The notes below the pieces were generated by a model that ran no database searches, was not told the origin of the DNA, and saw only the letters and a list, made by a program, of their open reading frames with translations. Below, in pieces: positions 38,638 to 53,754 of a DNA stretch of 64,000 bases; positions within the stretch are counted from its first letter, which is position 1, and each line of letters begins with the position of its first letter. The DNA comes from Dongia sedimenti. Lineage in GTDB: Bacteria; Pseudomonadota; Alphaproteobacteria; Dongiales; Dongiaceae. Both the position numbers and the translations under genes were made by a program. The stretch is from the NCBI GenBank assembly GCA_030715195.1, contig JAUYVI010000003.1:152960-216959 (forward strand), read 5' to 3'.

Positions 38638-38655
38638 GTTACAGTTTTATGACAC
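38638..38655 (-). promoter_or_regulatory. PhoB-box-like sequence
   Basis: Read on the minus strand, 38655-38638 is GTGTCATAAAACTGTAAC, close to the PhoB box (CTGTCAT, four A/T-rich bases, CTGTCAC), with both TGTCAT and CTGTAAC repeat units. It lies 39 bases before the ATG of the Na/Pi cotransporter gene. Its orientation is opposite to the gene, which is unusual for activation, so function is uncertain. Confidence 0.45.
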
Positions 38656-38693
38656 AGAGTGAGCCGCCGGCCAGCGTCGGCGTTTGAATTAGC

Positions 38694-40343
38694 ATGGAAT
38701 TCCTTCTCCACCTGTTCGGTGCCGTTGCGCTGCTGCTCTGGTCGCTCCGCATGGTGCGGACCGGCGTGATGCGCGCCTATGGCAGCCAGTTGCGCCATTG
38801 GGTGGGCCTCGCGATGACCAACCGCTTCCGCGCGGTCGGCGCCGGCATCGTCACCAGCCTGCTGCTGCAGTCGTCCAGCGCGACGGGCCTGCTGACCTCG
38901 TCCTTCGTGGCGCGCGGCATGGTCGGCGCCGCCTCGGCGCTGGCGATCATGCTCGGCGCCGATCTCGGCACCAGCCTGGTGACGCAGGCCTATTCGCTGC
39001 CGGTCTACATCCTCTCGCCGGTGCTGATCCTCGTCGGCTACATCATGTTCAACCGACTGGAGAGCACGCGGCTGCGCGATCTCGGCCGGGCCGGGATAGG
39101 GCTCGGCTTGGCGTTGCTGGCACTCCGGCTGATCACCGAGGCGGCGGAGCCGATCCGCGACGCACCGCTGCTGCCGCAGATCCTGAACCTGATGTCCAAC
39201 TCGCCGGTCTTCGGGGTGATCGCCGGCGGCATCCTGACCGTGCTCTGCGCTTCCAGCGTCGCCGTCGTGCTGCTGATAGCGACCCTGGTGAAGGCGAGCC
39301 TGCTGCCGGTGCCTCTCGCACTCGCCTTCGTGCTCGGCGCCAATCTCTGCGCCGATGTGATGGCGATGCTGACTTCGATGGGCGACCCGCCGGAGGCGCG
39401 CCGGGTCCAGCTCGGCAACATGATCTTCCGCGGGATCGGTGTGATCGCCGTGCTGCCCTTCCTGCCGCTGATCGTGCCGCTGCTGCCCATGCTGCCGGAT
39501 TTCGGCGGCGGCGCGATGCGCCAGATCCTCGACTTCCATGTCGGCTTCAACCTGGCGCTGATCGTGGTCTTCATCGGCCTGATCGGCCCGGTCTCGCGCC
39601 TGACCCGCAAGCTGCTGCCCGACAGCGTCAAGGCCGACGATCCGTCACGCCCGCGCTATCTCTCGGCCAATGCCGTGGACTCGCCCTCGGTCGCGCTGGC
39701 CAACGCCTCGCGCGAGGCGCTGCGGATGGGCGATGCGGTGGGGGAGATCCTGCGCCTCTCGCTGCAGGCCTTCCGCTCCGACGACCGCAAGGTGATCAAG
39801 CTCGCCAGCGATCTCGACTCCCAGGTCGATCGCCTGAACGAAGCGATCAAGCTCTATCTCACCAAAGTTAGCCGCGAGAGCATGAATCCGGAGGACCAGC
39901 GCCGGGTCATCGACCTCATCACCTTCACCACCAATCTCGAGCATATCGGCGACATCGTCGACAAGAACCTGATGGAGCTCGTCTCGAAGAAGGTGAAGTA
40001 CAAGCTGAAATTCTCGCCCGAAGGCGCCGAGGAGATCGAGGTGATCCACGATCGCCTCAACGGCAACCTGCAGCTGGCGATGAACGTCTTCATGACCGGC
40101 GACATCACGCTCGCCCGCAAGCTGTTCGATGAGAAGCGGGCCTTCCGCGAATTGGAGCGCCAGGCCGCGGAAAGCCATCTCGACCGGCTGCGCTCCGGCC
40201 GGATCGAGAGCATCCAGACCAGCAGCCTGCATCTCGACATCCTGCGCGACCTGAAACGCATCAACTCCCATCTCGCTTTGGTCGCCCAGCCGATCCTGGA
40301 AGCGGCCGGCGAGCTCAGTCCCTCGCGGCTGAAAGAAGCCTGA
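38694..40343 (+). CDS. Na/Pi cotransporter family protein with PhoU-like domain
   Basis: A 549-residue protein. Residues 1-310 form about eight to nine membrane helices with the two inverted Na/Pi-cotransporter repeats, including the hallmark LLQSSSATGLLTSS and VLCASSVAVVLLIATLV (QSSSA-type) motifs. Residues 340-530 form a helical PhoU-like domain (for example TTNLEHIGDIVDKNLMEL). The family moves phosphate with sodium, and the direction in bacteria may be export. Its place next to a PhoB-like box and upstream of phosphonate uptake and breakdown genes suggests it balances phosphate released from phosphonates. A repeat element separates it from pepA. Confidence 0.88.
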   Translation: MEFLLHLFGAVALLLWSLRMVRTGVMRAYGSQLRHWVGLAMTNRFRAVGAGIVTSLLLQSSSATGLLTSSFVARGMVGAASALAIMLGADLGTSLVTQAYSLPVYILSPVLILVGYIMFNRLESTRLRDLGRAGIGLGLALLALRLITEAAEPIRDAPLLPQILNLMSNSPVFGVIAGGILTVLCASSVAVVLLIATLVKASLLPVPLALAFVLGANLCADVMAMLTSMGDPPEARRVQLGNMIFRGIGVIAVLPFLPLIVPLLPMLPDFGGGAMRQILDFHVGFNLALIVVFIGLIGPVSRLTRKLLPDSVKADDPSRPRYLSANAVDSPSVALANASREALRMGDAVGEILRLSLQAFRSDDRKVIKLASDLDSQVDRLNEAIKLYLTKVSRESMNPEDQRRVIDLITFTTNLEHIGDIVDKNLMELVSKKVKYKLKFSPEGAEEIEVIHDRLNGNLQLAMNVFMTGDITLARKLFDEKRAFRELERQAAESHLDRLRSGRIESIQTSSLHLDILRDLKRINSHLALVAQPILEAAGELSPSRLKEA

Positions 40344-40474
40344 TCTCCGAATCTGGATTTCTTGATGCACCTCAAAGAAATCCGGGCCGCTTCATGCGAG
40401 GCTCTCCTCGATCGCACGATGCCCCATGCACAGGCATGGCCCACGCGCGGGCACCTTGCGAAGGAGTGGCGGAC

Positions 40475-40600
40475 ATGACCGTCCTCATGATCACGTTCTG
40501 GCTGGCCTTGCAGCTTCCTGCTGGCATCCTGGTCGGCCGCCGGCTTCAGCACGGCCCACTTCTGCTTCCCGCCAGGACCCGTCGGCGGTCCCGCCGCTGA
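40475..40600 (+). CDS. Putative 41-residue membrane peptide
   Basis: A short frame starting ATG at 40475 with AAGGAG eight bases upstream. It encodes one hydrophobic segment (residues about 2-21, MTVLMITFWLALQLPAGILV) followed by a very basic tail (RTRRRSRR). It lies in the 404-base gap between the Na/Pi cotransporter and the first AEP-binding protein; the rest of that gap has only a TATAAT at 40652-40657 with no matching -35. It is real only if conserved; no family is recognised. Confidence 0.4.
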   Translation: MTVLMITFWLALQLPAGILVGRRLQHGPLLLPARTRRRSRR

Positions 40601-40651
40601 CCGCGCGATCCGCCGGTATCCGTCTGGATTTCCCGCTTTATTTGACTTCGG

Positions 40652-40657
40652 TATAAT
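40652..40657 (+). promoter_or_regulatory. Candidate -10 element for phosphonate transporter operon
   Basis: TATAAT at 40652-40657, 91 bases before the first binding-protein gene, in a short AT-rich patch of an otherwise GC-rich gap. No good -35 is found at 17 +/- 1 bases, which suits an activator-dependent promoter (PhoB or the local LysR protein are candidates by context). Confidence 0.4.
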
Positions 40658-40747
40658 GTCCCAGCTAAGGAAAGCCGCGCCGGGCGGGGGAAGCCGCGCC
40701 GGCCGCGAACGGGGAAACCGGATTTCAGGACTGGGAAGGCGCACGGA

Positions 40748-41803
40748 ATGAATTCGATCAAGTGGACCGCACGGAACTTGCTGGGCGGCGCAGCCTCCGT
40801 TGCCGCTCTCGTCCTCGGTTCTGGCGCCATGGCCGCCGGCCCGCAGAAGATCACGGTCTACACCGCGCTCCAGGCCGAGCAGCTCCCGGTCTACGAAGCG
40901 GCCTTCGAAGCGAAGTACCCGAAGTTCGATATCGAATGGGTGCGTGGCACCCCGGCCGAGATCACCGCGAAACTGCTGGCCGAGAAGGGCGATCCCCAGG
41001 CCGACGCCGTCTGGGGCCTCGGTGCCAGCTACCTGATGGAGGCCGACAAGAACGGCCAGCTCGAGCATTACCGCCCGGCCGGCTTCGATCAGATCAAGGA
41101 CGCATTCAAGGACCGCCGCACCGGCTGGCCGGTCTGGGTCGGCATGGATGCCTGGGCCAACGCGATCTGCTTCAACACCAAGCTCGCGGCCGAGCAGAAG
41201 ATCCCCCGGCCCGGTGCCTGGAAGGATCTGGTCGAGCCGGTCTACAAGAATCACATCGTGATGCCGAACCCGACCTCATCGGATACCGGCTTCCTCTCGG
41301 TCGCCGGCTGGATCCAGACCTTCGGCGAGACCGGCGGCTGGGACTTCATGGACCTGCTGCACGAGAACGTCTCGTCCTATCTCCATTCCGGCGCCAAGAC
41401 CTGCGCCGCGGTCGCCACCGGCGACGCGGTGGTCGGCATCTCGTTCGGCTACGCGGGGGTGAAGCTGGCGAACAACGGCTCGCCGGTCGAGGTGATCTTC
41501 CCGAAGGAGGGGCTCGGCTGGGAAATGGAAGCAACCGCCGTGGTGAAAGGCGCGAAGCACCTGCAGGGGGCGCAAGCCGTCGCCGACTTCTCCGCCAGTG
41601 CCGAGGCCAATGGGCTCTACAACAGCTACTACCAGATCCTCGCCCGCAAGGACGTCGCGGTGACCCTGCCGGACAACTATCCCGGCGGCGAGGAAGAGGC
41701 CCTGATCTCGCCCAACGACTTCCCCGCGGTCGCCGCGCGGCGCCAGGCGATCCTCGACGAATGGGAAAAGCGCTACAGCGGCAAGAACGCCCCGAAGAGC
41801 TGA
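40748..41803 (+). CDS. phnS2: 2-Aminoethylphosphonate-type ABC transporter binding protein, copy 1
   Basis: A 351-residue periplasmic solute-binding protein (extracellular family 1, FbpA/PhnS2-like). Signal peptide residues about 1-29 end at AMAA. The mature part begins with the family phrase ITVYTALQAEQLPVYEAAFEAK and includes WVRGTPAEITAKLLAEKGDPQADAVWGL, VGMDAWANAICFNT and MPNPTSSDTGFLSVA. These match the PhnS2-type proteins linked to AEP use. GGAAGG precedes the ATG. It heads the transport operon and is followed after 172 bases by a close paralogue. Exact ligand (AEP, its N-methyl forms or another aminophosphonate) is not certain. Confidence 0.85.
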   Translation: MNSIKWTARNLLGGAASVAALVLGSGAMAAGPQKITVYTALQAEQLPVYEAAFEAKYPKFDIEWVRGTPAEITAKLLAEKGDPQADAVWGLGASYLMEADKNGQLEHYRPAGFDQIKDAFKDRRTGWPVWVGMDAWANAICFNTKLAAEQKIPRPGAWKDLVEPVYKNHIVMPNPTSSDTGFLSVAGWIQTFGETGGWDFMDLLHENVSSYLHSGAKTCAAVATGDAVVGISFGYAGVKLANNGSPVEVIFPKEGLGWEMEATAVVKGAKHLQGAQAVADFSASAEANGLYNSYYQILARKDVAVTLPDNYPGGEEEALISPNDFPAVAARRQAILDEWEKRYSGKNAPKS

Positions 41804-41893
41804 GCCGCGACTGACCCAGCCTGCCCGCCGAAGCGCGGAGCGCCGAAGGGGAGCTGAATACAGCTGCCTCCACAACGTAACCCTGTTGTTATC

Positions 41894-41908
41894 AAACCGT
41901 CACGGTTT
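41894..41908. promoter_or_regulatory. Perfect inverted repeat between the two binding-protein genes
   Basis: AAACCGTCACGGTTT is a perfect 6-3-6 inverted repeat in the 172-base gap between the two binding-protein genes, 68 bases before the second start. It may be an operator for a second promoter, allowing the copies to be expressed differently. No T-run follows, so it is not a typical terminator. Confidence 0.4.
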
Positions 41909-41975
41909 CCGGCGAGTTTGCCCTCGCGCGATCCGCAGAGATCGCCATGCAATATTTGAGATGAGGGACAGACAG

Positions 41976-43025
41976 ATGTTCGGAACCATATCGCGCCCCC
42001 GGGGCGTAACGCTGGCCGGCCTGACGCTGGCGGCGCTGGTCGGCTTTGCCGCCACCGCTTCCGCCAAGGACAAGCTCACCGTCTACACCGCGCTCGAGGA
42101 AGAGCAGCTGCCGGTCTACAAGCAGGCCTTCGAGGCCGCGAACCCGAACTACGAGATCGAATGGGTCCGCGATTCGACCGGCGTGGTCACCGCGCGCCTG
42201 CTGGCCGAGAAGGCCAACCCGCAGGCCGACGCGATCTGGGGCCTCGCCGCGACCAGCCTGATGGTGCTGGACAAGGAAGGCATGCTCGACTCCTACAAGC
42301 CCGCCGGCTATGCGGACATCAAGGATGACTTCAAGGACAAGCGCGAGAACCCGACCTGGGTCGGCATGGATGCCTGGGCCTCGGCGATCTGCTTCAACAC
42401 CGTCGAAGCCGAGAAGCTCGGCCTGCCGAAGCCGGAGACCTGGAAGGATCTGCTGAAGCCGGTCTATCAGGGTCACATCGTCATGCCGAATCCGAACTCC
42501 TCGGGCACCGGCTTCCTCGATGTCGCCGCCTGGCTGCAGATCTTCGGCGAGAAGGACGGCTGGGCCTACATGGACGGCCTGCACAAGAACATCAACACCT
42601 ACCTGCATTCGGGCTCCAAGCCCTGCAAGGCCGCGGGCGCCGGCGAGTACCCGATCGGCATCTCCTTCTCCTATCCCGGCGTCGTCCTGAAGAACAAGGG
42701 CGCGCCGCTCGAGATCATCCTGCCGAAGGACGGAATCGGCTGGGAGATGGAAGCGACCGCGATTGTGAAGGGCACCAAGCACGCCGACGGCGCCAAGGCC
42801 CTGGCTGACTTCGCTGCCACCGCCGACGCCAACAAGATGTACAACGGGTACTATCAAGTGCTCGCCCGCAAGGACGTGCAGGCCAAGCTGCCGGAGAACT
42901 ATCCGGCGGACGAAGAAAAGCTGATGATCTCGCCGAACGACTTCACGGCGATGGCCGCGAAACGCGCGGCGATCCTCGAAGAGTGGCAGAAGCGCTACGG
43001 CTCCAAGGACGCCCCGAAGAGCTGA
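41976..43025 (+). CDS. phnS2: 2-Aminoethylphosphonate-type ABC transporter binding protein, copy 2
   Basis: A 349-residue paralogue of the preceding binding protein, alike over its whole length (LTVYTALEEEQLPVYKQAFEA, VGMDAWASAICFNT, MPNPNSSGTGFLDVAAWLQ). Signal peptide ends at TASA. Differences near the ligand pocket region include DSTGVVTARLL in place of GTPAEITAKLL and NPNSSGTG in place of NPTSSDTG, so the two may bind different substrates. ATG 41976 is chosen because GAGGGACA precedes it and the signal peptide then starts properly. A 180-base palindromic element separates it from the ATPase gene. Confidence 0.87.
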   Translation: MFGTISRPRGVTLAGLTLAALVGFAATASAKDKLTVYTALEEEQLPVYKQAFEAANPNYEIEWVRDSTGVVTARLLAEKANPQADAIWGLAATSLMVLDKEGMLDSYKPAGYADIKDDFKDKRENPTWVGMDAWASAICFNTVEAEKLGLPKPETWKDLLKPVYQGHIVMPNPNSSGTGFLDVAAWLQIFGEKDGWAYMDGLHKNINTYLHSGSKPCKAAGAGEYPIGISFSYPGVVLKNKGAPLEIILPKDGIGWEMEATAIVKGTKHADGAKALADFAATADANKMYNGYYQVLARKDVQAKLPENYPADEEKLMISPNDFTAMAAKRAAILEEWQKRYGSKDAPKS

Positions 43026-43046
43026 TCTGTCTGCTGCGCTGAACCC

Positions 43047-43226
43047 GGCGCTGGATCTTGGGCATCACGGCTGCATCAACCCCCACCCCAACCCGCCCCC
43101 ATCTTGGGGGCGGGGGAAGGGAAAGACCGTCACTCTCAACAATGTCTTCATGAGAGTTCCTCCCCCCAAGATGGGGGGAGGCTAGGTAGGGGGTTGATGC
43201 AGCCTGAGCGCATGAGATCCAGCGCC
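43047..43226. repeat. Nested palindromic intergenic element, copy 3
   Basis: The best-preserved copy: 180 bases with outer arms GGCGCTGGATCTTGGGCATC (43047-43066) and GAGATCCAGCGCC (43214-43226), then GGCTGCATCAACCCCC and GGGGGTTGATGCAGCC, then two inner hairpins of CCCCCATCTTGGGGG type. It lies directly after the second binding-protein gene and before the ATPase gene, a position where REP-like hairpins in other ABC operons stabilise the upstream mRNA. Confidence 0.85.
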
Positions 43227-43253
43227 AAGTCTCATCAAGCAAAGACAACCCAA

Positions 43254-44327
43254 ATGCCCTACCTCCAGATCTCCAACGTCAGCAAATCCTTTGGCACCTT
43301 CCAGGCGCTGAAGGACGTCTCGCTCGAGATCGAGGAAGGCAAGTTCGTCTGCTTCCTCGGCCCCTCCGGCTGCGGCAAGACCACGCTGCTGCGTGCGATC
43401 GCCGGGCTCGACATCCAGACTTCCGGCCGCATCTTGCAGGGCGGCCGCGACATCTCCGCGCTTCCGTCGTCGCAGCGCGATTTCGGCATCGTCTTCCAGT
43501 CCTACGCACTGTTTCCGAACCTCAGCATCGCCGACAACATCGGCTACGGGCTGAAGAACTCCGGCAAGTCTCGCAAGGAAGTCGCCGCGCGCGTCGCCGA
43601 GCTGACCGAGCTGGTCGGCCTCAAGGGTCAGGAGCGCAAATATCCGAGCCAGCTTTCCGGCGGCCAGCAACAGCGGGTCGCACTGGCGCGGGCGATCGCC
43701 ATGGCGCCCGGCCTGCTGCTGCTCGATGAGCCCTTGTCCGCGCTCGATGCCCGCGTCCGCCTGCATCTCCGCAGCGAGTTGAAGTCGCTGCAGCGCCGGA
43801 TCGGCGTCACCACGATCATGGTGACCCATGACCAGGCCGAAGCCCTGGCGATCGCCGACCAGCTGGTGGTGATGAATCAGGGCGTGATCGAGCAGGTCGG
43901 CACGCCGCAGGAAGTCTACCGCAACCCGAAGACCGCCTTCGTCGCCGATTTCGTCGGCCACATGAACTTCCTCCGCGCCGAGGTGGTGGGCGAGGGGAAT
44001 GTGCAGGTCGGCGGCTTGATTCTCGCCGCCGAGACCGGTGGTCTTCCGGCGGGCGAAATCGTCTCGCTCTGCTTCCGCCCCGAGGACATCCAAGTCCGCG
44101 GCATTGCCGCCGGGAACAAGAACACGATCGAGGTTCGCATCGAGGAGATGGAATTCCTCGGCACCTTCTACCGCGCCGATCTCGCGCTGAACGGCCCGAC
44201 CTCGCCGCGCGTCATGGCCGATTTCTCGATGAACGCCGCCCGCGACCTGGCGCTGGAGCCGGGCAAGATCATCCCGATCGCCATGCCCGCGGACCGGCTG
44301 CGGCTGTTCGGTGAGAAGCGCGGCTGA
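43254..44327 (+). CDS. phnT2: 2-Aminoethylphosphonate-type ABC transporter ATPase
   Basis: A 357-residue ATPase of the importer type. Walker A GPSGCGKTT is at residues 36-44, the signature LSGGQQQRVALARA and Walker B LLLLDEP follow, with the switch His in VTHDQ. A C-terminal TOBE domain (residues about 275-350) is present. It starts QISNVSKSFGTFQALKDVSL, like PhnT2/PotA-type proteins. ATG at 43254 is inferred from homology; the frame extends upstream through the palindromic element and no strong ribosome binding site is seen. Its stop overlaps the permease start (TGATG). Confidence 0.88.
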   Translation: MPYLQISNVSKSFGTFQALKDVSLEIEEGKFVCFLGPSGCGKTTLLRAIAGLDIQTSGRILQGGRDISALPSSQRDFGIVFQSYALFPNLSIADNIGYGLKNSGKSRKEVAARVAELTELVGLKGQERKYPSQLSGGQQQRVALARAIAMAPGLLLLDEPLSALDARVRLHLRSELKSLQRRIGVTTIMVTHDQAEALAIADQLVVMNQGVIEQVGTPQEVYRNPKTAFVADFVGHMNFLRAEVVGEGNVQVGGLILAAETGGLPAGEIVSLCFRPEDIQVRGIAAGNKNTIEVRIEEMEFLGTFYRADLALNGPTSPRVMADFSMNAARDLALEPGKIIPIAMPADRLRLFGEKRG

Positions 44328-46057
44328 TGGCCGACACCTTCGCCTTCGACCTCGCACCGCCGCAAGCCAAAGAGCCGGCGAAGATCCGCCCGATCGTCAG
44401 CCGCGAGGAATGGGGCATGCGCGCCGGCCTCGGCCTGCTGGCGCTGTACCTCGCCGTCACCATCGCCATCCCGCTCTTCATGTTGCTGCGGAAATCGGTC
44501 GAGGACGCGGACGGCAGCTTCATCGGCCTTGCCAACTTCCACCGCTATTTTGCCGACCCGGCGCTCTCGCTCTCCTTCCAGAACAGCTTCTTCATTTCGA
44601 TCCTCGGCACCGCGATCACGTTGTGGCTGGCCTTCTGGTATGCCTATGCCATCACCCGCAGCTGCATGCCGGCCCGTGGACTCTTCAAGGCGCTGGCGTT
44701 GATCCCGCTGCTCGCCCCGTCGCTGCTGCCGGGCCTCGCCTTGGTTTATCTCTTCGGCAACCAGGGCATCTTCAAGAGCGTGCTGATGGGCCAGTCGATC
44801 TACGGCCCGATCGGCATCATCACCGGCGAGGTCTTCTTCGCCTTCCCGCATGCGGTCATGATCATCACCACCGCGCTGGCCATGGCCGACCAGCGGCTCT
44901 ATGAGGCGGCGGACGCGCTACGGGCCGGCCCGGTCCGCACCTTCTTCACCGTGACGCTGCCCGGCTGCCGTTACGGTGTGATGAGCGCGGGCTTCGTGAT
45001 CTTCACCCTGATCTTCACCGATTTCGGCGTGCCGAAGGTGATCGGCGGTTCCTATGACGTGCTGGCGACCGACATCTATCAGCAGGTGATCGGCCAGTTC
45101 AATTTCCAGATGGGCGCCGTCATCGGCCTGCTGCTGCTGGCACCGACGGTCCTCTCCTTCGCCGCCGACCGCATCACCACGCGCCGCCAGCAATCCATGG
45201 TCTCCGCCCGCGCCGTGCCGCTCGAGCCGAAGCCGCGCCGGGCGGTCGATCGCGCCTGCTTCGCCTTCTGCCTGGTGATCGCCGTCTTCCTGCTGGGCGT
45301 GATGGGCATGGCGGCGTTCGGCAGTGTCGTGAAGTTCTGGCCCTACAATCTCTCGCTGACCTTGATGCATTACGACTTCGGCAAGCTCGGTACCGATGGC
45401 TGGAACCCGTTCTGGAACAGCCTGAAGCTCTCGGCCTTCACCGCCGTCTTCGGCACCGCCATCGTCTTCGCCGGCGCCTATCTGGTCGAGAAGATTCGCG
45501 GCTTCGGCATCGCGCGTTCGGCGGTGCATCTCCTTGCCATGCTGCCGCTGGCGACGCCCGGCCTGGTGCTCGGGCTTTCCTACATCTTCTTCTTCAACAG
45601 CCCGGACAATCCGCTGAACTTCCTCTATGCGACGCTGACGATCCTGGTCATCTGCACGATCACCCACTTCTACACCGTCTGCCATCTGACCGCGGTCACC
45701 GCGCTGAAGCAGCTGGACGCGGAGTTCGAGGCCGTTTCGGCCTCCTTGAAAGTTCCGGTCTGGCGAACCTTCCTGCGCGTCACGGTACCGGTCTGCCTGC
45801 CGGCCATCCTCGACATCGCGATCTATTACTTCGTGAACGCAATGACCACGGTCTCCGCGGTGATCTTCATCTACACCGGCTCGACCAAGCTGATGGCGAT
45901 CAATGCCCTCAACACCGACGATGCCGGCAACAGCGCCGCCGCCTGCGCCATGGGCATGACCATCGTCGTCACCTGCGCCCTGGTGCGCGGCCTGCACGCC
46001 CTGGCCGGCCGCACCTTCCTGGCCCGGCACCAGGCTTGGCGGCGCCGTTCGGCATGA
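44327..46057 (+). CDS. phnU2: 2-Aminoethylphosphonate-type ABC transporter permease (fused)
   Basis: A 576-residue inner-membrane permease with two binding-protein-dependent transport domains fused in one chain (residues about 60-290 and 340-570, about six helices each), like FbpB and PhnU2. Each half has the EAA loop: EAADALRAGPVRTFFTVTLPG and FEAVSASLKVPVWRTFLRVTVP. One gene therefore supplies both transmembrane halves. It is translationally coupled to the ATPase gene. With the two binding proteins it forms a complete importer for an aminophosphonate. Confidence 0.88.
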   Translation: MADTFAFDLAPPQAKEPAKIRPIVSREEWGMRAGLGLLALYLAVTIAIPLFMLLRKSVEDADGSFIGLANFHRYFADPALSLSFQNSFFISILGTAITLWLAFWYAYAITRSCMPARGLFKALALIPLLAPSLLPGLALVYLFGNQGIFKSVLMGQSIYGPIGIITGEVFFAFPHAVMIITTALAMADQRLYEAADALRAGPVRTFFTVTLPGCRYGVMSAGFVIFTLIFTDFGVPKVIGGSYDVLATDIYQQVIGQFNFQMGAVIGLLLLAPTVLSFAADRITTRRQQSMVSARAVPLEPKPRRAVDRACFAFCLVIAVFLLGVMGMAAFGSVVKFWPYNLSLTLMHYDFGKLGTDGWNPFWNSLKLSAFTAVFGTAIVFAGAYLVEKIRGFGIARSAVHLLAMLPLATPGLVLGLSYIFFFNSPDNPLNFLYATLTILVICTITHFYTVCHLTAVTALKQLDAEFEAVSASLKVPVWRTFLRVTVPVCLPAILDIAIYYFVNAMTTVSAVIFIYTGSTKLMAINALNTDDAGNSAAACAMGMTIVVTCALVRGLHALAGRTFLARHQAWRRRSA

Positions 46058-46119: not shown

Positions 46120-46611
46120 GTGCGCTTGCCGACCTGGACCGACCCGGAACTGGCCAAATCCACGCTGGTCAGGACGCTCTACGAGTGGTGGAGCGCCAAC
46201 GCCGGTCCTGCCGGCATTCCGGACCGCAGCGCCTTCGATCTCATCGAGCACCGTCTGCTGATGCCGAACGTCATGATCTCGGACGTCGAACCGGAGCCGT
46301 TCCGGATCCGCTATCGTCTGGTCGGCACCCGGGTCGTGAACAATCTCGGTGTCGATTTCACCGGCCGCTACCTGGACGAGCTGCTCGGCCCGAACTTCCA
46401 GATCCCCTGGATGGACTATTACCGCCAAGCCTATGCCGCCCGCCGGCCGCTGATGGGTGCGCTGACCGAGCCGACCCAATCCGGTAGCACCTTCGCCTAC
46501 GAGTTCGGTCTGTTTCCGATCGCCCGCGGCGGCGCCGAGGTGAAGCAGTTCATCGCGGTGGAGGATTATTTCGACTTCACGCTGACCTCGGGCGCGCTGG
46601 CCGGCCTCTGA
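46120..46611 (+). CDS. PAS_5-family sensory protein, second
   Basis: A 163-residue stand-alone PAS_5 protein, related to that at 1114-1599: LYEWWSANAGPAGIPDRSAF corresponds to the opening helix, and FRIRYRLVGTRVVNNLGVDFTGRYLDEL to the central strand. No output domain. The start (GTG 46120) has only a poor ribosome binding site. It follows the transporter operon after 62 bases on the same strand and converges with the secreted protein gene at 46628. Any tie to phosphonate sensing is by position only. Confidence 0.72.
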   Translation: MRLPTWTDPELAKSTLVRTLYEWWSANAGPAGIPDRSAFDLIEHRLLMPNVMISDVEPEPFRIRYRLVGTRVVNNLGVDFTGRYLDELLGPNFQIPWMDYYRQAYAARRPLMGALTEPTQSGSTFAYEFGLFPIARGGAEVKQFIAVEDYFDFTLTSGALAGL

Positions 46612-46627
46612 TCGATGCCGGCGATTC

Positions 46628-47083
46628 TCAACAACCCGCGATCATCGGCTTCAGCGCCTCGGCGGCCCCCTCCGCGGTGAACTGGCCCTTCCAGCCGAAG
46701 GGCGACATGGCGACCGCGAAGCTCTTGCTGGCGGCGATATCCTCCATCAGCCGCTGCAGGGCCACCTGGGCGTTGAGGTCCGAGGCATCGAAGATCAGCT
46801 CCGCATCCTTGGCGACCGCCGTCACCTCGCTGCGCCCGCGATCGGTGACGAAGGTGAGGGTGTAGCGGTGGTCGTCCGGCACCGAGACCCGGAACTGCGC
46901 CGACCGCACGATCAGCTGCGGCGCACCGGTGACCGGGCAAACGAAGATGACCGCGTTCTGCCGCTCGTCCTTCGTGCCGGCATACCGCGCGCCCTTGTTT
47001 TCCAGACTGTTCCAAGGTTCCGACTGTGCGTAAGCCGCGGTGCCGATGAGGATCAAAGCAAAGGCGAGGAAGACATGTTTCAT
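46628..47083 (-). CDS. Secreted hypothetical protein co-transcribed with LysR regulator
   Basis: A 151-residue protein with a Sec signal peptide (residues 1-19, AYA cleavage site). The mature part includes NAVIFVCPVTGAPQL, a beta-rich middle and a C-terminal MIAGC; the two Cys may form a disulfide. No family recognised. Its ATG overlaps the stop of the LysR gene (ATGA at 47080-47083), so it is made with the regulator. It could be a periplasmic factor of the phosphonate system, but nothing in the sequence proves this. Confidence 0.72.
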   Translation of the reverse strand: MKHVFLAFALILIGTAAYAQSEPWNSLENKGARYAGTKDERQNAVIFVCPVTGAPQLIVRSAQFRVSVPDDHRYTLTFVTDRGRSEVTAVAKDAELIFDASDLNAQVALQRLMEDIAASKSFAVAMSPFGWKGQFTAEGAAEALKPMIAGC

Positions 47084-47967
47084 CGCTTGCGCTCCTGCGC
47101 CACCGTCTCCTGCACGATATCCAGGAACGCCTTCACCAGCGGCGTCGCCTTGCGATCCGCGAGGCAGGCCACATATTCCGTCGAAGCCATCACCGGTCCC
47201 TCGAACTCCAAGGCCTTGAGTCGCATATCGTCGCCGAACTCCGCCCGGGCGACGATGCCGATGCCCAGGCCCGTCGCCACCGCCTCGCGGATGGCTTCGC
47301 GGCTGCCGATCTCCAGCACCTCGCCGGTCTTGATCCCCGCGGCACTCATGGCGCCGTCGAAGCACTGCCGCGTGGTGGAGGAGGGCTCGCGCAGCACCAG
47401 GCGCTTGCCCGCCAGTTCCGCGATCTTGATCCGTCTGCGCTTGGCCCAGGGATGCGCCCGATCGACGAAGCAGATCAGCTGGTCCTGCCGGAACGGGATG
47501 GCGTGGATGCGCGCATCCGGGGTCACATTGGCGGCGATGGCGACATCGCAGCTCTGGTCCAGCAGATCGGATTGCAGCTTGCTGGAATTGCCGATCGACA
47601 TCGAGAGCCGCAGGTTCGGATAGCGCCGATTGAACACCGCCAGGAACGGGATCGAGTGATAGGGCGCGTCGGCGCCGATCCTGAGGTGCCCGCGCTTCAA
47701 CCCCTTGGCCGAGGTCAGCACCTGTTCGGCCTCGATCTCCAGGCTGAACAGCCGCCAGGTGATCTCCAGCAGCTGGCGCCCGATATCGGTCAGCTCGATC
47801 TTCCGCCGGCGCCGGTCGAACAGATGGACGCTATAACGCTCCTCGAGCGCCCGGACCTGGCCCGAGAGGGTCGGCTGGGTCACATGCAAGCTGTTGGCGG
47901 CCTTGGTGAAACTGCCTTCGGTCGCGACCGCGTGGAAGGCCCGGAGCTGGCTCTGGCTGATGCTCAT
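47080..47967 (-). CDS. LysR-type regulator of aminoethylphosphonate catabolism
   Basis: A 295-residue LysR protein. The N-terminal winged helix (residues 4-62) reads LRAFHAVATEGSFTKAANSLHVTQPTLSGQVRALEERY; the C-terminal substrate-binding domain follows from about residue 90. It matches the LysR subgroup found next to phnWAY-type clusters. It is transcribed divergently from phnW with a 98-base gap that holds AT-rich dyads (around 47980-48010) typical of LysR sites. Likely an activator responding to AEP or a breakdown product, by analogy with such divergent pairs. Confidence 0.88.
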   Translation of the reverse strand: MSISQSQLRAFHAVATEGSFTKAANSLHVTQPTLSGQVRALEERYSVHLFDRRRRKIELTDIGRQLLEITWRLFSLEIEAEQVLTSAKGLKRGHLRIGADAPYHSIPFLAVFNRRYPNLRLSMSIGNSSKLQSDLLDQSCDVAIAANVTPDARIHAIPFRQDQLICFVDRAHPWAKRRRIKIAELAGKRLVLREPSSTTRQCFDGAMSAAGIKTGEVLEIGSREAIREAVATGLGIGIVARAEFGDDMRLKALEFEGPVMASTEYVACLADRKATPLVKAFLDIVQETVAQERKR

Positions 47968-48065
47968 GACAGAATAGGGTAGGCCTATAGGTCACATAAC
48001 TGTTAACGATTGGATTTATAGTACGGGCCGCGACCATAATCCAGCCATCCCCATTGGAGACGCAC

Positions 48066-49199
48066 ATGGCGCAGCACGACCCCTGGCTTCTGACCCCCGG
48101 ACCCCTGACCACCTCGATGACCGTGAAGCAGGCGATGCTGCACGACTGGGGCTCGCGCGATGCCGGCTTCGTCGCCATCAACACCCACATGCGCAAGCGC
48201 CTGGTCGATCTGATCGGCGGCGGCAAGGATTTCACCACCGTGCCGATGCAGGGCAGCGGCACCTTCGCGGTCGAGGCGATGCTCGGCGGCTTCGTCGGCC
48301 CCAAGGACAAGCTGCTGATCCTGATCAACGGCGCCTATGGCAAGCGCATGGCGAAGATCTGCGAATACTACAAGCGCGCCACCGCCGTGCTGGAATGGCC
48401 GGAAGACCAGCCGGTCGACCCTGCCAAGGTCCGCGAGGCGCTCGCCGCCGACCAGGCGATCACCCATGTCGCCGTGGTCCATTGCGAGACCACCTCGGGC
48501 ATCCTCAACCCGATCGCCGAAATCTCGAAGGTCGTCGCCGAGGCCGGCCGCAAGCTGCTGATCGATTCCATGAGCGCCTTCGGAGCGCTGCCGATCGACG
48601 TTAACAGCGTCACCTTTGACGCCGTTGCCGCGTCCTCGAACAAATGCATCGAAGGCGTGCCGGGCCTGGGCTTCGTGCTCTGCCGCATCTCTGCGCTGGA
48701 GAAGACCAAGGGCAACGCGATGTCGCTCACCCTCGATCTGTTCGAGCAGTGGCAGAACCTGGAAAAGACCAGCCAGTACCGCTTCACCCCGCCGATCCAC
48801 TGCATCGTCGCCTTCGACCAGGCGCTGACCGAGCATGAGCAGGAAGGCGGCGTCGCCGGCCGCGGCGGCCGCTATCGCAACAACCATAAGATCCTGGTCG
48901 ATGGCATGCGGGCGCTGGGCTTCGAGACCCTGCTGCCGGATCGCCTGCAGGCGCCGATCATCGTCACCTTCCACATGCCGGCCGATCCGAAGTTCGTGTT
49001 CGAGCAGTTCTATGACGGCTTGAAGGACCGCGGCTTCGTGATCTATCCGGGTAAGCTCACGGTCGCCGACAGCTTCCGCATCGGTTGCATCGGCCGCATC
49101 GGCGAAACTGAAATGAAAGCCTTCCTCGCCGCCGCCAAGGACGTTCTGAACGGGCTCGGCGTCGCGTCGGGCCGCCCCCACAACAAGGCCGCGGAGTAG
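48066..49199 (+). CDS. phnW: 2-Aminoethylphosphonate-pyruvate transaminase
   Basis: A 377-residue PLP enzyme (class V fold) that converts AEP and pyruvate to phosphonoacetaldehyde and alanine. The start region PWLLTPGPLTTSMTVKQAM is the PhnW signature. The PLP Lys is Lys193 in SSNKCIEGVPG and Asp168 in LIDSMS contacts the ring nitrogen. ATG 48066 is chosen because GGAG lies six bases upstream; a TTG at 48054 is in frame but is not needed. It is the first gene of phnW-phnA-phnY, divergent from the LysR gene. Confidence 0.96.
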   Translation: MAQHDPWLLTPGPLTTSMTVKQAMLHDWGSRDAGFVAINTHMRKRLVDLIGGGKDFTTVPMQGSGTFAVEAMLGGFVGPKDKLLILINGAYGKRMAKICEYYKRATAVLEWPEDQPVDPAKVREALAADQAITHVAVVHCETTSGILNPIAEISKVVAEAGRKLLIDSMSAFGALPIDVNSVTFDAVAASSNKCIEGVPGLGFVLCRISALEKTKGNAMSLTLDLFEQWQNLEKTSQYRFTPPIHCIVAFDQALTEHEQEGGVAGRGGRYRNNHKILVDGMRALGFETLLPDRLQAPIIVTFHMPADPKFVFEQFYDGLKDRGFVIYPGKLTVADSFRIGCIGRIGETEMKAFLAAAKDVLNGLGVASGRPHNKAAE

Positions 49200-49202
49200 G
49201 GC

Positions 49203-50459
49203 ATGCAAAAGAACATCAGCGTCACCGTCAACGGCAAGACCTACGCTTGGCCGAAGCAGCCGCTCGTCGTGGTCTGCGTCGATGGCTGCGAGCCGGATTA
49301 TCTCACCAAGGCGATTGCCGCCGGCGCCATGCCCTGGCTGGCGAAGACGGTGAAGAGTGGCGCGAATCTCATCGGCGAATGCGTGGTGCCGAGCTTCACC
49401 AACCCGAACAACCTCTCGATCGTCACCGGCGCGCCGCCTTCCGTGCACGGCATCTGCGGCAACTATCTCTATGACCGCGAGAGCGGCCAGGAGGTGATGA
49501 TGAACGATCCGAAGTTCCTGCGGGCGCCGACCATCCTCGCAGCCTTCTCGGATGCGGGCGCCAAGCTCGCCGTGGTCACCGCCAAGGACAAGCTCCGGCT
49601 GCTGCTCGGCAAGGGCATGAAGGGCATCTGCTTCTCGGCCGAGAAGGCGGACCAGGCGAACGAGAAGGACCACGGCATCGGCGACGTGCTGAACTTCGTC
49701 GGCAAGCCGCTGCCTTCGGTCTACAGCGCGGATCTCTCGGAATTCGTCTTCGCCGCCGGCGCCAAGCTGCTGAAGGCCAAGCGCCCCGATATCATGTATC
49801 TCTCGACCACCGACTATATTCAGCACAAATACGCGCCGGGCGACGCGATCGCCAATGACTTCTACCGGATGATGGACTCCTATCTGGCCGAGATGGATGC
49901 GATGGGCGCGGAGATCGTGCTGACCGCCGATCACGGCATGAACGACAAGCACGGCGACGACCTGCAGCCTCAAGTCGTCTATCTGCAGGACGTGCTGGAC
50001 GGCTGGCTCGGCGCCGCCAAGGCCCGCGTGATCCTGCCGATCACCGACCCCTATGTGGTGCATCACGGCGCGCTCGGCTCCTTCGCCACGGTCTATCTGC
50101 CGGAGGGTGCTGACCAGGCTGCCATCATCGCGAAGATCGCCAAGCTGCCGGGCATCGAACTGGCCGTCGATCGCGCCACCGGCTGCAAGAAGTTCGAGCT
50201 GCCCGAGGATCGGGTCGGCGACGTGATCGTCGTCTCGGAAAAACTCTACGCCATCGGCACCAGCGTCTCGAAGCACGACCTCTCGGGGCTCACCCGGCCG
50301 CTGCGCTCGCATGGCGGCATGACCGAGCAGAAGGTGCCGGTCATCGTGAACCGGAAGCTGAAAGCGCTGCCGCAGGGCTATCGCCTGCGCAATTTCAGCG
50401 CCTTCGATCTCGGCCTGAATTACGCTGTAGAAGAAACCCAACTCGACAAGGCTGTCTGA
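49203..50459 (+). CDS. phnA: Phosphonoacetate hydrolase
   Basis: A 418-residue metalloenzyme of the alkaline phosphatase superfamily that splits phosphonoacetate to acetate and phosphate. Catalytic and zinc residues line up with the Sinorhizobium enzyme: Asp27 (VCVDGCE), nucleophile Thr66 (PSFTNPNN), Asp204 and His208 (TTDYIQH), Asp243 and His244 (TADHGMN) and His370 (RSHGGMT). All are present, so activity is expected. It starts three bases after phnW and is followed three bases later by phnY. It is not the unrelated zinc-ribbon protein also called PhnA in E. coli. Confidence 0.95.
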   Translation: MQKNISVTVNGKTYAWPKQPLVVVCVDGCEPDYLTKAIAAGAMPWLAKTVKSGANLIGECVVPSFTNPNNLSIVTGAPPSVHGICGNYLYDRESGQEVMMNDPKFLRAPTILAAFSDAGAKLAVVTAKDKLRLLLGKGMKGICFSAEKADQANEKDHGIGDVLNFVGKPLPSVYSADLSEFVFAAGAKLLKAKRPDIMYLSTTDYIQHKYAPGDAIANDFYRMMDSYLAEMDAMGAEIVLTADHGMNDKHGDDLQPQVVYLQDVLDGWLGAAKARVILPITDPYVVHHGALGSFATVYLPEGADQAAIIAKIAKLPGIELAVDRATGCKKFELPEDRVGDVIVVSEKLYAIGTSVSKHDLSGLTRPLRSHGGMTEQKVPVIVNRKLKALPQGYRLRNFSAFDLGLNYAVEETQLDKAV

Positions 50460-50462
50460 CCC

Positions 50463-51890
50463 ATGGGTGTCATCCGCAAAGAGACGATGCGCGTTGCCGG
50501 CAAGTTCGGCGTCAGCGACCGCAGTTTCGAGGTCTTCAACCCCTATGACAACCAGGTGGTCGGCACCTGCCCGAGGGCCACGGTGGACGACATCCGCCAG
50601 GCCTTCGCCGTCGCCAAGGCCTATAAGCCCACGCTGAGCCGCGCCGATCGCAGCGCCATTCTGCGCAAGACCGCGGAGATCCTGGTCTCGCGTCGGCAGC
50701 AGATCGCCGAGCTGATCACATCGGAATCGGGCTTGAGCCTCAAGGACACGCTCTACGAGGTCGGCCGCGCCTATGACGTGTTCCATCTGGCGTCGGGCAT
50801 CGTGATCAAGGATGACGGCGAGATCTTCTCCTGCGACATCACCCCGCACGGCAAGAAGCGCCGCATCTACACCCAGCGCGATCCGCTGCTCGGTGTCATC
50901 TCGGCGATCACGCCCTTCAATCACCCGCTGAACCAGGTGGCGCACAAGGTGGCGCCGTCGATCGCCACCAACAACCGCATGGTGCTGAAACCCTCGGAGA
51001 AGACGCCGCTCTCGGCGCTGATGCTGGCCGACGTGCTCTACGAGGCCGGCCTGCCGCGGGAGATGTTCCAGGTCGTCACCGGCGACCCCAAGGAGATCGC
51101 CGACACGCTGCTGACCGACCCGAATGTCGATCTCATCACCTTCACCGGCGGCGTCTCGGTCGGCAAGTACATCGCCAAGAACATGGGCTATCGCCGCGCC
51201 GTGCTGGAATTGGGCGGCAACGATCCGCTGATCGTCATGGAAGATGCCGATATCGAGGAGGCGGCCACGCTCGCCGCCGCCGGCTCCTATAAGAACTCCG
51301 GCCAGCGCTGCACCGCGGTGAAGCGCATGATCGTCCATGAGGCGGTCGCCGACCGTTTCGTTGAGCTGCTGCTGGAGAAGACCAAGGCGGTGAAATACGG
51401 CGACCCGGCCGATCCCGACACCGACATGGGCACCGTCATCGACGAGGCCTCCGCGATCTACTGCGAGGCGGCGGTCAACGATGCGGTGAAGGCGGGGGCC
51501 AAGCTGCTCCACGGCAACATCCGCAAGGGTGCCTTGTATTCGCCGACCGTGGTCGATCACGTGCCGTATGACTGCCGCCTAGTCCATATCGAGACCTTCG
51601 GCCCGGTCTCGCCGGTCATCCGCGTGAAGAACATCGACGAGGCGATCAAGGTCTCGAACTCGACCGACTATGGCCTCTCTTCCGGCATCTGCACCAACCG
51701 CCTGGACTACATCACCCGCTTCGTCCGCGAGCTGGAAGTGGGCACGGTGAACGTGCGCGAAGTGCCTGGCTACCGCATCGAGATGTCGCCCTTCGGCGGC
51801 ATCAAGGATTCCGGCCTGGGCTACAAGGAAGGCGTGATCGAGGCGATGAAATGTTTTACAAACGTGAAGACGTATTCACTGCCCTGGTGA
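50463..51890 (+). CDS. phnY: Phosphonoacetaldehyde dehydrogenase
   Basis: A 475-residue aldehyde dehydrogenase that oxidises phosphonoacetaldehyde to phosphonoacetate with NAD+. The catalytic Cys is in NSGQRCTAVKRM and the general base Glu in LELGGNDPLIV; the NAD site includes TFTGGVSVGKYIAK. With PhnW and PhnA it completes the AEP-to-acetate route. The same symbol is used elsewhere for an unrelated 2OG oxygenase. It ends the three-gene run; a palindromic element then separates it from the oxidative pair. Confidence 0.95.
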   Translation: MGVIRKETMRVAGKFGVSDRSFEVFNPYDNQVVGTCPRATVDDIRQAFAVAKAYKPTLSRADRSAILRKTAEILVSRRQQIAELITSESGLSLKDTLYEVGRAYDVFHLASGIVIKDDGEIFSCDITPHGKKRRIYTQRDPLLGVISAITPFNHPLNQVAHKVAPSIATNNRMVLKPSEKTPLSALMLADVLYEAGLPREMFQVVTGDPKEIADTLLTDPNVDLITFTGGVSVGKYIAKNMGYRRAVLELGGNDPLIVMEDADIEEAATLAAAGSYKNSGQRCTAVKRMIVHEAVADRFVELLLEKTKAVKYGDPADPDTDMGTVIDEASAIYCEAAVNDAVKAGAKLLHGNIRKGALYSPTVVDHVPYDCRLVHIETFGPVSPVIRVKNIDEAIKVSNSTDYGLSSGICTNRLDYITRFVRELEVGTVNVREVPGYRIEMSPFGGIKDSGLGYKEGVIEAMKCFTNVKTYSLPW

Positions 51891-51928
51891 GAGCGACTTG
51901 AAACTGGGCGTGGTGCAGCGACAAACTC

Positions 51929-52015
51929 CGTCATCCCCGAACTTGGTTCGGGGATCCACGCCTTCTTTCTTCGCACCCCAAGGCGTGGATCCCCGCGCCT
52001 AGCGCGGGGATGACG
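51929..52015. repeat. Nested palindromic element of second type
   Basis: An 87-base element with perfect 11-base ends (CGTCATCCCCG and CGGGGATGACG), inner arms GGGGATCCACGCCTT and AAGGCGTGGATCCCC, and a hairpin in each half. It can fold into a cruciform. This GTCATCCCCG type is common between genes in alphaproteobacteria. It separates phnY from the tmpA-like gene and may mark a transcript processing point. Confidence 0.85.
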
Positions 52016-52042
52016 ACCGAGAAATAGCCGCCGAGGAGCCCA

Positions 52043-53200
52043 ATGTCCGATCCCAACCGCCGTCCCGCCGTGGTCGAGGTGCATGAGGGCGGGCTTACGG
52101 TCCGGTGGAGCGACAAGTCGCCGATGCACCTGCCGAACTACTGGCTGCGCGACAACTGCCGCTGCCCGAAATGCCGGCATCCCGGCAACGGCCAGAAGCT
52201 CTACGAGATCGTCGACTTGCCCGCCGATCTCGCCGCGATCGAGGCGATGGTGGCACCCGACGCCAGCGTGAAGGTGCTCTGGTCCGACGGGCATCGCTCG
52301 GAATACGCAGCCGACTGGCTGAACGCCCACGATCTCATTCCCTCGGCCCGCGATGCGCGGCGGCCGCAGGTCGAACTCTGGGGCAAGACGATCGAAAGCG
52401 CTCTTCCGGTCGGCGAATGGCCGCAGATGCTGCAGGATCCGGCGAAGGAACTGGCTTGGCTCGATCGCTACACCGCGCTCGGCTTCGGCCTGCTCAGGAA
52501 CGTGCCGACCCTGTCCGGCATGGTGGCGGAGGTCGGCGATCACCTGGGCTTCGTGCGGGTGACCAATTACGGCCGGCTGTTCGACGTGATCTCGGTGCCG
52601 AACCCGAACAACCTCGCCAACACTTCGCTCGGCCTCGGCGTGCATTCGGACAATCCCTATCGGCATCCCTCGCCGGGCGTGCAGCTGCTGCATTGCCTGG
52701 AGGCGGGTGCGCCGGGGGGAGACACCCTGCTGGTCGACGGCTTCCACGCGGCGGAGATCCTGCGCAAGGAAAATCCGGGCGCCTTCGCGCTGCTCTCGAC
52801 CGTACCGATGACCTTCCGCTTCGCCGACGACAAGGCGGAACTCGAGGCGCGCCAGACCTTGATCACCGCCGACATGGACGGCGTGGTCACCGCGGTGCAT
52901 TTCAACAACCGCTCGGCGGATTGGCTGGACGCGCCGATCGATCTCGCCGGCCGCTGGTACGCCGCCTATCGGGTCTTCGCCCAGATCCTGAAACGGCCCG
53001 AGCTGGAACTCGTTTTCAAGCTCGGTCCCGGCGATCTCGTGGTCATGCAGAACGACCGCGCGCTGCACGGCCGCACTGCCTTCGATCCCAACCTCGGCCG
53101 TCGCCACCTGCAAGGCTGCTACATCGACCGCGACGGCATCGAGAGCCGCCGCCGCGTGCTGAAGCGCCGAACCACCAACCGCACGGATGCCGCCGCATGA
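52043..53200 (+). CDS. tmpA: Fe(II)/2-oxoglutarate oxygenase, TmpA-like
   Basis: A 385-residue oxygenase with the two-domain layout of gamma-butyrobetaine hydroxylase. The N-terminal domain binds zinc through Cys39, Cys41, Cys44 and His84 (CRCPKC, DGHRSEY). The C-terminal TauD-type domain has the iron site His201-x-Asp203 (GVHSDN) and His342 (RALHGRT). TmpA hydroxylates 2-(trimethylammonio)ethylphosphonate before cleavage by TmpB. The HD partner encoded next (ATGA overlap) makes this call much stronger than gamma-butyrobetaine hydroxylase; the PhnY* type that hydroxylates plain AEP remains possible. Confidence 0.8.
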   Translation: MSDPNRRPAVVEVHEGGLTVRWSDKSPMHLPNYWLRDNCRCPKCRHPGNGQKLYEIVDLPADLAAIEAMVAPDASVKVLWSDGHRSEYAADWLNAHDLIPSARDARRPQVELWGKTIESALPVGEWPQMLQDPAKELAWLDRYTALGFGLLRNVPTLSGMVAEVGDHLGFVRVTNYGRLFDVISVPNPNNLANTSLGLGVHSDNPYRHPSPGVQLLHCLEAGAPGGDTLLVDGFHAAEILRKENPGAFALLSTVPMTFRFADDKAELEARQTLITADMDGVVTAVHFNNRSADWLDAPIDLAGRWYAAYRVFAQILKRPELELVFKLGPGDLVVMQNDRALHGRTAFDPNLGRRHLQGCYIDRDGIESRRRVLKRRTTNRTDAAA

Positions 53201-53754
53201 GCACGCCCGCTGAAAATACACTGGACGACATCCGCGCCGCCTTTGCGAAGCGCGGCCATGAAGGCTATGGCGAAGGCGTCAGCCAGCTCGATCACGCGCT
53301 GCAATGCGCCGTGTTCGCCGAGCGGGATGGTGCGTCGGAGCCACTGATCGTGGCGACCCTGCTGCACGATATCGGCCATATGCTGCACGATCTGCCGGAG
53401 AACATCGCGGATAGCGGCATCGACACCCAGCACGAGTCGCTGGGTTCGGCTTGGTTGTCGCAGCACTTCGGCCCGGAGGTCAGCGAGCCGGTGCGTCTGC
53501 ATGTGGCGGCGAAGCGCTATCTCTCGGCCAGCGAGGCCGGCTATTTCGACGTCTTGTCCGATGCCTCGAAACTGTCGCTGAAGCTGCAGGGCGGACCGAT
53601 GAACCCGGAAGAGCAGGCGAAATTCGGAGCCGAGCGCTTCTTCGCAGAGGCCGTCGCGCTGCGCCGCTGGGACGACGAGGGCAAGATCCTCGGCATGAAG
53701 ACGCCGGATTTGGCGCATTTCGAGCCGATGATCGCGCGCAGCCTCCGGCGCTGA
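53197..53754 (+). CDS. tmpB: HD-domain mixed-valent diiron phosphonate oxygenase, TmpB/PhnZ-like
   Basis: A 185-residue HD protein that cuts the carbon-phosphorus bond of an alpha-hydroxyphosphonate with oxygen, releasing phosphate and a carboxylic acid (glycine betaine for TmpB, glycine for PhnZ). Iron ligands seen are His33, His57-Asp58 (LLHDIGH), His79 (TQHES), His102 and Asp159/Asp160. The substrate-lid Tyr24 and Glu26 match the Tyr/Glu pair of PhnZ (YGEGVSQLDHALQ). Its start overlaps the stop of the tmpA-like gene. Substrate follows from the partner and is not fixed by sequence alone. Confidence 0.82.
   Translation: MSTPAENTLDDIRAAFAKRGHEGYGEGVSQLDHALQCAVFAERDGASEPLIVATLLHDIGHMLHDLPENIADSGIDTQHESLGSAWLSQHFGPEVSEPVRLHVAAKRYLSASEAGYFDVLSDASKLSLKLQGGPMNPEEQAKFGAERFFAEAVALRRWDDEGKILGMKTPDLAHFEPMIARSLRR

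Follow-up and report, generated by a model that had tools for sequence, protein, structure and literature searches.

A Dongia sedimenti aminophosphonate operon with a PhnW-PhnA-PhnY route and a putative second, oxidative C-P cleavage branch related to TmpA/TmpB

The widening of operons for 2-aminoethylphosphonate (AEP) use by ancillary genes is a known theme (PMC10574752, PMC10590968, PMC12366243), and we describe here a block of genes from Dongia sedimenti in which such a widening is again probable. The block occupies positions 38694-53754 of the window, by which we mean the whole 64,000-nucleotide stretch of DNA that was analysed, itself part of contig C20 of a 6.13 Mb genome. As in the PhnWAY operon of Sinorhizobium meliloti (PMC10574752), PhnW, PhnA and PhnY are accompanied by a divergent LysR regulator and an ATP-binding cassette (ABC) importer, but the window adds a pair made up of a 2-oxoglutarate/Fe(II) oxygenase and an HD-domain protein. 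TmpA/TmpB of Leisingera caerulea, which converts 2-(trimethylammonio)ethylphosphonate (trimethyl-AEP) to glycine betaine and phosphate, has the oxygenase-HD order, the iron ligands and the phosphonate-binding triad in common with this pair; the window proteins nevertheless fall in separate clades, with zinc-site residues and a shorter YxE loop, an oxygenase only 41% identical to TmpA and an HD protein that fails the TmpB model.

Three further systems frame the comparison. The flavin adenine dinucleotide (FAD) enzymes PbfB, PbfC and PbfD (PMC10590968, PMC12366243) are likewise encoded by ancillary genes through which an AEP operon comes to take in N-methyl-AEP, but they yield phosphonoacetaldehyde and methylamine, whereas the window pair is predicted to cleave the carbon-phosphorus (C-P) bond directly and oxidatively. 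The PhnHD proteins of Achromobacter phosphonatase clusters (PMC11203657) resemble the window HD protein, which passes the same model (TIGR03276), in being encoded next to genes for AEP degradation that include a LysR regulator; the available part of that account reports no TmpA-type partner for them, in contrast to the in-line oxygenase of the window. Human gamma-butyrobetaine dioxygenase (BBOX) has its fold family, zinc ligands and aromatic positions in common with the window oxygenase, but is 32% identical to it and has Ala in place of Arg290. By sequence, each part of the block belongs to a known family. Our literature search found no account of phnWAY or phnWX followed in line by an oxygenase-HD pair, and none of the clade to which this pair belongs; the original TmpA/TmpB paper may show such contexts.

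On balance we favour, as probable though well short of assured, the reading that these genes form an operon for aminophosphonate use in which the C-P bond is cleaved by two branches, the second of which we infer from conserved ligands and from the precedents of TmpA/TmpB and PhnY*/PhnZ. In the first branch, the importer would bring in AEP, PhnW would convert it to phosphonoacetaldehyde, PhnY would oxidise this to phosphonoacetate, and PhnA would hydrolyse phosphonoacetate to acetate and phosphate. In the second, C1 of N-methylated AEP would be hydroxylated by the 2-oxoglutarate oxygenase; the di-iron HD oxygenase would then cleave the C-P bond, releasing phosphate together with sarcosine, dimethylglycine or glycine betaine, whichever N-methylglycine corresponds to the degree of methylation. 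The N-methylglycine could be consumed by demethylating dehydrogenases encoded elsewhere in the genome. That the substrate is N-methylated AEP, of whatever degree, seems to us probable to the same extent, because of the relationship to TmpA, the inability of PhnW to process N-methyl-AEP (PMC12366243) and the nature of the neighbouring genes. It is plausible that AEP and its methylated forms are imported together, and the pair, which makes up a clade of its own beside TmpA/TmpB, may prefer a methylation state lower than trimethyl.

The first branch is the ordinary route and its action on AEP is a well-supported prediction. Profile scans (NCBIfam and Pfam, against curated bit-score cut-offs) recovered PhnW, the AEP:pyruvate transaminase (48054-49199; NF010006, 528.8 against 296 bits), PhnA, the phosphonoacetate hydrolase (49203-50459; TIGR02335, 579.6 against 407.55 bits), and PhnY, the phosphonoacetaldehyde dehydrogenase (50463-51890; TIGR03250, 838.0 against 635.65 bits), contiguous, on the plus strand and each above its cut-off. 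A sequence-only reading of this DNA had named an intact PhnW-PhnA-PhnY route, and the scans bear it out, together with the presence and order of all the other genes which that reading had named in the block.

The oxygenase-HD pair is joined to such operons well beyond the window. A search of 385 genomes of the class gave 28 loci above the TmpA cut-off, 27 of them with an HD gene immediately downstream (the exception being in G184). Of 17 genomes searched within the window's family, 16 gave a hit above the TmpA cut-off and 14 have PhnA. A pair of the window type is present in 15 of these genomes and stands in line with an AEP operon in every one: 13 are linked to PhnA and PhnY, with PhnW seen in 12 (the G387 contig ends first), and two (G385, G395) are linked instead to PhnW and the phosphonatase PhnX. 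In G396 the TmpA-model hits are unlinked to PhnA, and the one paired with an HD gene (on C34) is without the zinc residues; G390, a genome 68% complete, has only a partial hit. Five genus mates (G037, G165, G263, G340, G386) carry an opposite-strand LysR gene between PhnY and the oxygenase, the one scanned being GcvA-like (280.2 against 288 bits). Because this linkage is conserved across the family, a joint function of the pair and the AEP operon appears likely. It is a trait of the window's family and not of the whole clade: within the fetched stretches, importer genes occur at two of the 12 betaproteobacterial-type loci of the clade (L011, L013), and among canonical TmpA loci PhnW lies within the fetched stretch in one of 18 (G342).

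That canonical locus (L105) deserves separate mention, as its TmpA-HD pair is joined to LysR, PhnWAY, an importer and a dimethylglycine-dehydrogenase-like gene. Within the family, transposase genes of IS110 and IS481 lie within or beside the operon at L139 (G393), and one of IS4 at L140 (G394). Five genus mates carry, adjoining the phn LysR gene, a fusion of an APH phosphotransferase and a class III aminotransferase (L080:1071-3446, with matches at L078, L079, L081 and L148); the window stretch (L077) has none.

The oxygenase (52043-53200, plus strand; 385 aa) scores above the TmpA model cut-off (NF049936, 430.7 against 400 bits), and among solved structures TmpA (6NPB) is closest to it in sequence. 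A tree of 67 oxygenases puts it in its own 17-row clade with support of 100/100, outside the 24-row clade (98/98) of TmpA 6NPB and separate from human BBOX. This tree was restricted to open reading frames (ORFs) of at least 330 aa, so that the cut ORFs of L015, L017 and L088 are excluded, as are three longer than 480 aa (L085, L087, L118), and from the many hits below the TmpA cut-off it takes in only the fetched subset. The predicted iron ligands H201, D203 and H342 are kept in all 17 clade rows, as are N190, N289 and R290, which align with the phosphonate-binding residues N187, N287 and R288 of TmpA (PMC9296572). For residue counts we extended the clade to 25 distinct members by adding eight family members (L137-L140, L143, L146-L148), assigned by identity, zinc residues and loop and not by the tree; L012 is the same contig as L145 (G392) and L014 the same as L144 (G387), and each is counted once. 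The triad is present in 24 of the 25, the exception (L138) having Glu at 289, while human BBOX has Ala at the Arg290 position and the remaining BBOX-like group has Arg in one of 14 rows.

The zinc ligands are a different matter. Cys39, Cys41, Cys44 and His84 stand exactly where the sequence-only reading placed them, and they recur in 24 of the 25 clade members (L013 is truncated before the cysteines and has the His). That reading took them as support for a TmpA-type function, a use that does not survive: none of 19 canonical TmpA rows, Leisingera TmpA included, carries them, and human BBOX has all four. By alignment they mark the window's clade and BBOX, not TmpA, and the informative residues of the oxygenase are N190, N289 and R290. 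Aromatic residues at Y176, F180 and Y360 are kept in all 17 rows. Position 193 aligns with Tyr194 of human BBOX, a cage residue, and is Tyr in 19, Phe in three and Asn in three of the 25 members, the last being the window, G391 and G389. We had entertained Asn193 as a clade-wide change, but with one row of 17 (the window alone) and three of 25 in the extended set this is ruled out. An AlphaFold2 model of the oxygenase had a mean predicted local distance difference test (pLDDT) score of 62.4 and was left unused.

The HD protein (53197-53754, plus strand; 185 aa, Phn-HD type, TmpB/PhnZ-like) follows directly, its frame overlapping that of the oxygenase by four bases if it starts at the ATG at 53197. 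It passes the Phn-HD model (TIGR03276, 218.3 against 214.6 bits) and falls below those for TmpB (NF049941, 181 against 300 bits) and PhnZ1 (150 against 300 bits). Its AlphaFold2 model (pLDDT 89.2) finds TmpB (6NPA) and PhnZ as best structure matches, with Foldseek template modelling (TM) scores of 0.84-0.87 over the query and the next match at E 0.16. H33, H57, D58, H79, H102 and D159 are invariant in 13 aligned HD sequences, and these are the predicted metal ligands, an assignment that agrees with the ligand positions of PhnZ. They also fit the H...HD...H...H...D motif of HD oxygenases (PMC8177086), and motif and fold together place the protein among the mixed-valent di-iron HD oxygenases, with a predicted metal site.

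In a tree of 74 HD proteins (rows from seven loci, L068, L088 and L112-L116, were dropped as the same genes fetched twice) the window protein lies in a 19-row clade (100/97), apart from an 18-row TmpB clade (100/90); its closer neighbours there are Phn-HD proteins, the majority without a TmpA partner. In TmpB and PhnZ a mobile YxxE loop provides a Tyr that guards the iron and a Glu that contacts the amine (PMC8177086). The loop is one residue shorter, Y-G-E, in the window and in all 17 clade HD proteins with a full oxygenase partner, and in 10 further HD proteins of the extended set (two being duplicates of earlier contigs), whereas all 17 aligned HD partners of canonical TmpA have Y-L-G-E (18 canonical loci give 17 partners, G184 having no HD gene beside TmpA). 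As a mark of this HD clade alone the short loop is weakened by five Phn-HD proteins outside it that also have YxE (L048, L062, L071, L075, L076), of which the L048 gene adjoins a truncated TmpA-like gene. Every locus of the oxygenase clade recurs in the HD clade, which gains only L015 and L017, where the contig begins within the oxygenase ORF; with this agreement of loci the pair appears to have been inherited as a unit.

Genes beside the pair in related genomes bear on its product. At the betaproteobacterial-type locus L009 there is a dimethylglycine/sarcosine-dehydrogenase-like flavoprotein (domains DAO, FAO_M and GCV_T), and full-length relatives of it (48-49% identity) precede the oxygenase gene on its own strand in three of 15 family genomes, directly so at L137 and L140 (G385, G394) and with an IS110 gene between at L139 (G393). 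In two of the 12 betaproteobacterial-type loci the dehydrogenase-like gene is on the opposite strand, beside the HD gene at L004 and one gene beyond it at L009. Because the two kinds are only ~48% identical, they were probably recruited separately. A formaldehyde-glutathione dehydrogenase gene follows the HD gene in five of the 12, all of one subclade (scanned in L009), and the oxygenase gene is preceded by one for an EamA-type transporter in nine of 14 loci, with one intervening ORF in two. These neighbours fit a predicted N-methylglycine product, the methyl groups leaving as one-carbon units. In the window genome itself five genes related to this dehydrogenase score above 400 bits, and the closest has 67-68% identity with the in-operon form. 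At four betaproteobacterial-type loci (L005, L007, L011, L013; AptA at L013 was not called as a separate ORF) there are also genes for alanine dehydrogenase, methylmalonate-semialdehyde dehydrogenase and AptA, which we set aside, by judgement only, as probable chromosomal neighbours.

Several observations weigh against the reading we favour. The best tree unites the oxygenase clade with TmpA at only 52/95, and approximately unbiased (AU) tests reject none of the alternatives (p 0.21-0.30), two of which involve a third, uncharacterised group of oxygenases and one a grouping with human BBOX. Arg290 is present in 10 of 11 rows of that third group, where both Asn positions are mostly changed, and as a mark of phosphonate binding Arg290 alone is weakened accordingly. 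Position 193 is Tyr or Phe in 22 of 25 members, which is what a quaternary amine would lead one to expect. Only a minority of the clade loci have the dehydrogenase neighbour, and a similar gene is present at the canonical locus L105 beside phnWAY; because of the latter the neighbour is weakened as a mark separating the clade from TmpA and does not prove a different substrate. The dehydrogenase could, moreover, demethylate methylated AEP and so feed PhnW, and the five relatives in the window genome are all unlinked, none being on C20 near the operon. Finally, PhnA and PhnY were seen within the fetched stretch only at L009 among the 12 betaproteobacterial-type loci, some of which are on short contigs.

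Two narrower readings are sub-cases of N-methylated AEP use, and they differ in the methylation state assigned to the pair. The first, which is a serious possibility although we would not expect it, is that the pair is plain TmpA/TmpB, acting on trimethyl-AEP only to give glycine betaine and phosphate, and that the separate clade reflects sequence drift. The oxygenase score above the TmpA cut-off, the retained triad and aromatic residues, the weak union with TmpA in the best tree and the phnWAY linkage of the canonical TmpA locus in G342 all speak for it. It has to contend with an HD protein that scores below the TmpB model and sits in another clade with a YxE and not a YxxE loop, and with Asn193 in the window genome and two relatives. 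The sequence-only reading had called the pair TmpA/TmpB-like, citing the conversion of trimethyl-AEP by TmpA-TmpB, and had suggested use of AEP and its N-methylated forms; the likeness holds insofar as the TmpA and Phn-HD models are passed, but both proteins lie outside the characterised clades, and trimethyl-AEP as the substrate is not supported. The second, tentative and a shade less credible again, is a separate, undescribed pathway for di- or monomethyl-AEP, not trimethyl-AEP, that would yield dimethylglycine or sarcosine and phosphate. It would have become a fixed in-line partner of AEP operons in a single alphaproteobacterial family and also, accompanied by formaldehyde-handling genes, in relatives of Rhodoferax.

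Action on AEP or another unmethylated aminophosphonate, in the manner of PhnY*/PhnZ, would give glycine and make the pair an oxygen-dependent bypass of PhnWAY. The HD protein is close to PhnZ too (121 bits; TM ~0.85) and its place in the tree, nearer to Phn-HD proteins than to TmpB, would suit such a role, as would Asn193, which would weaken an aromatic cage. We think this improbable, since the operon already has PhnW, which would make the pair redundant, the oxygenase falls within the TmpA/BBOX group and not the PhnY* type, and aromatic Y176, F180 and Y360 are invariant in the clade rows. That the oxygenase is a gamma-butyrobetaine/carnitine-type hydroxylase merely adjoining an HD gene is very improbable: its zinc ligands are as in human BBOX, a long branch in the tree with which grouping gives an AU p of 0.21, but it falls below the gamma-butyrobetaine dioxygenase cut-off (TIGR02409, 355.9 against 414.75 bits), has Asn289 and Arg290 as in TmpA, is linked in the family to an HD partner and an AEP operon, and did not group firmly with carnitine enzymes in the tree check that the sequence-only reading had proposed.

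Returning to the two-branch operon as a whole, the importer genes are found as that reading described them, all on the plus strand. Two 2-AEP-type substrate-binding proteins lie in tandem, 60% identical to each other, at 40748-41803 (TIGR03261 phnS2, 391.9 bits, 0.85 below the cut-off of 392.75) and 41886-43025 (483.7 bits against the same cut-off; 41886 is the ORF limit as listed, and the true start is probably at an internal ATG). They are followed by the ATPase PhnT2 (43104-44327; TIGR03265, 522.9 against 457.7 bits; the listed ORF probably starts in truth near 43254) and the fused permease PhnU2 (44327-46057; TIGR03262, 792.1 against 593.25 bits), so that binding protein 2, ATPase and permease all exceed the cut-offs of the 2-AEP importer models. 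We considered the two binding proteins as a mark of two substrates; because the tandem is present in only two of 17 family genomes, it does not track the oxygenase-HD pair. The LysR gene, of the AEP-catabolism (phn) type and divergent from phnW (47080-47967, minus strand), scores 332.4 against 341.1 bits with TIGR03339, 8.7 below, and it and binding protein 1 are the members of the block that fall just short of their NCBIfam cut-offs, most others lying above.

Upstream, a Na/Pi cotransporter with a PhoU domain (38694-40343, plus strand; Pfam Na_Pi_cotrans and PhoU; NF037997, 126.6 against 50 bits) follows the PhoB-like box that had been proposed for it. The site is present at 38638-38654 on the minus strand with one mismatch to TGTCAYNNNNNTGTCAY, but sites of this kind turn up, once or more, in 32 of 100 shuffled versions of the window (mean expected 0.36), which puts it at chance level, and it was not counted as evidence. 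Between the importer and LysR, a PAS_5 (MopJ-like) gene (46120-46611, plus strand; PF07310, 29.0 against 22 bits) is an addition to the genes previously named, and a minus-strand reading frame at 46628-47095 between it and LysR had no NCBIfam or Pfam match. A repetitive extragenic palindromic (REP)-like inverted repeat, likewise new relative to the sequence-only reading, lies between phnY and the oxygenase gene (51929-52015; 36-nt arms, 86% complementary); its core has 41 exact matches in the genome against none for a control pattern, and several genome copies occur as facing pairs ~60 bases apart.

Elsewhere in the window genome, a second Phn-HD gene (G000 C24:142278-142805; L093:8440-9800) follows a PhnY*-type, methylphosphonate-hydroxylase-like gene that scores 234.9 bits against a cut-off of 500 with NF052437, and one C-P lyase gene, phnJ, lies on C26; judging from these genes, C-P lyase may be accompanied in this genome by a further oxidative C-P route. 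The third, BBOX-like oxygenase group is also directly followed by an HD protein, of 192-212 aa (L117, L119, L120, L125, L150:9461-11220), weakly Phn-HD-like at ~38-45 bits where scored; it occurs in two genus mates, in G396, in G105 and in genomes of 1.4-1.5 Mb, with the Asn positions mostly changed and the Arg kept.

The curated TmpA model labels the oxygenases of this clade as trimethyl-AEP dioxygenases by score alone, which calls for caution in annotation. In the Achromobacter study the function of Phn-HD (TIGR03276) proteins is left open (PMC11203657); some of them now gain an oxygenase partner and hence a likely substrate class. Few characterised enzymes, TmpA/TmpB and PbfB-D among them, account for the fate of N-methylated AEP (PMC10574752, PMC10590968, PMC12366243), and a clade of pairs that accompanies phnWAY or phnWX within one family offers a gene set for probing bacterial use of the methylation states of AEP.

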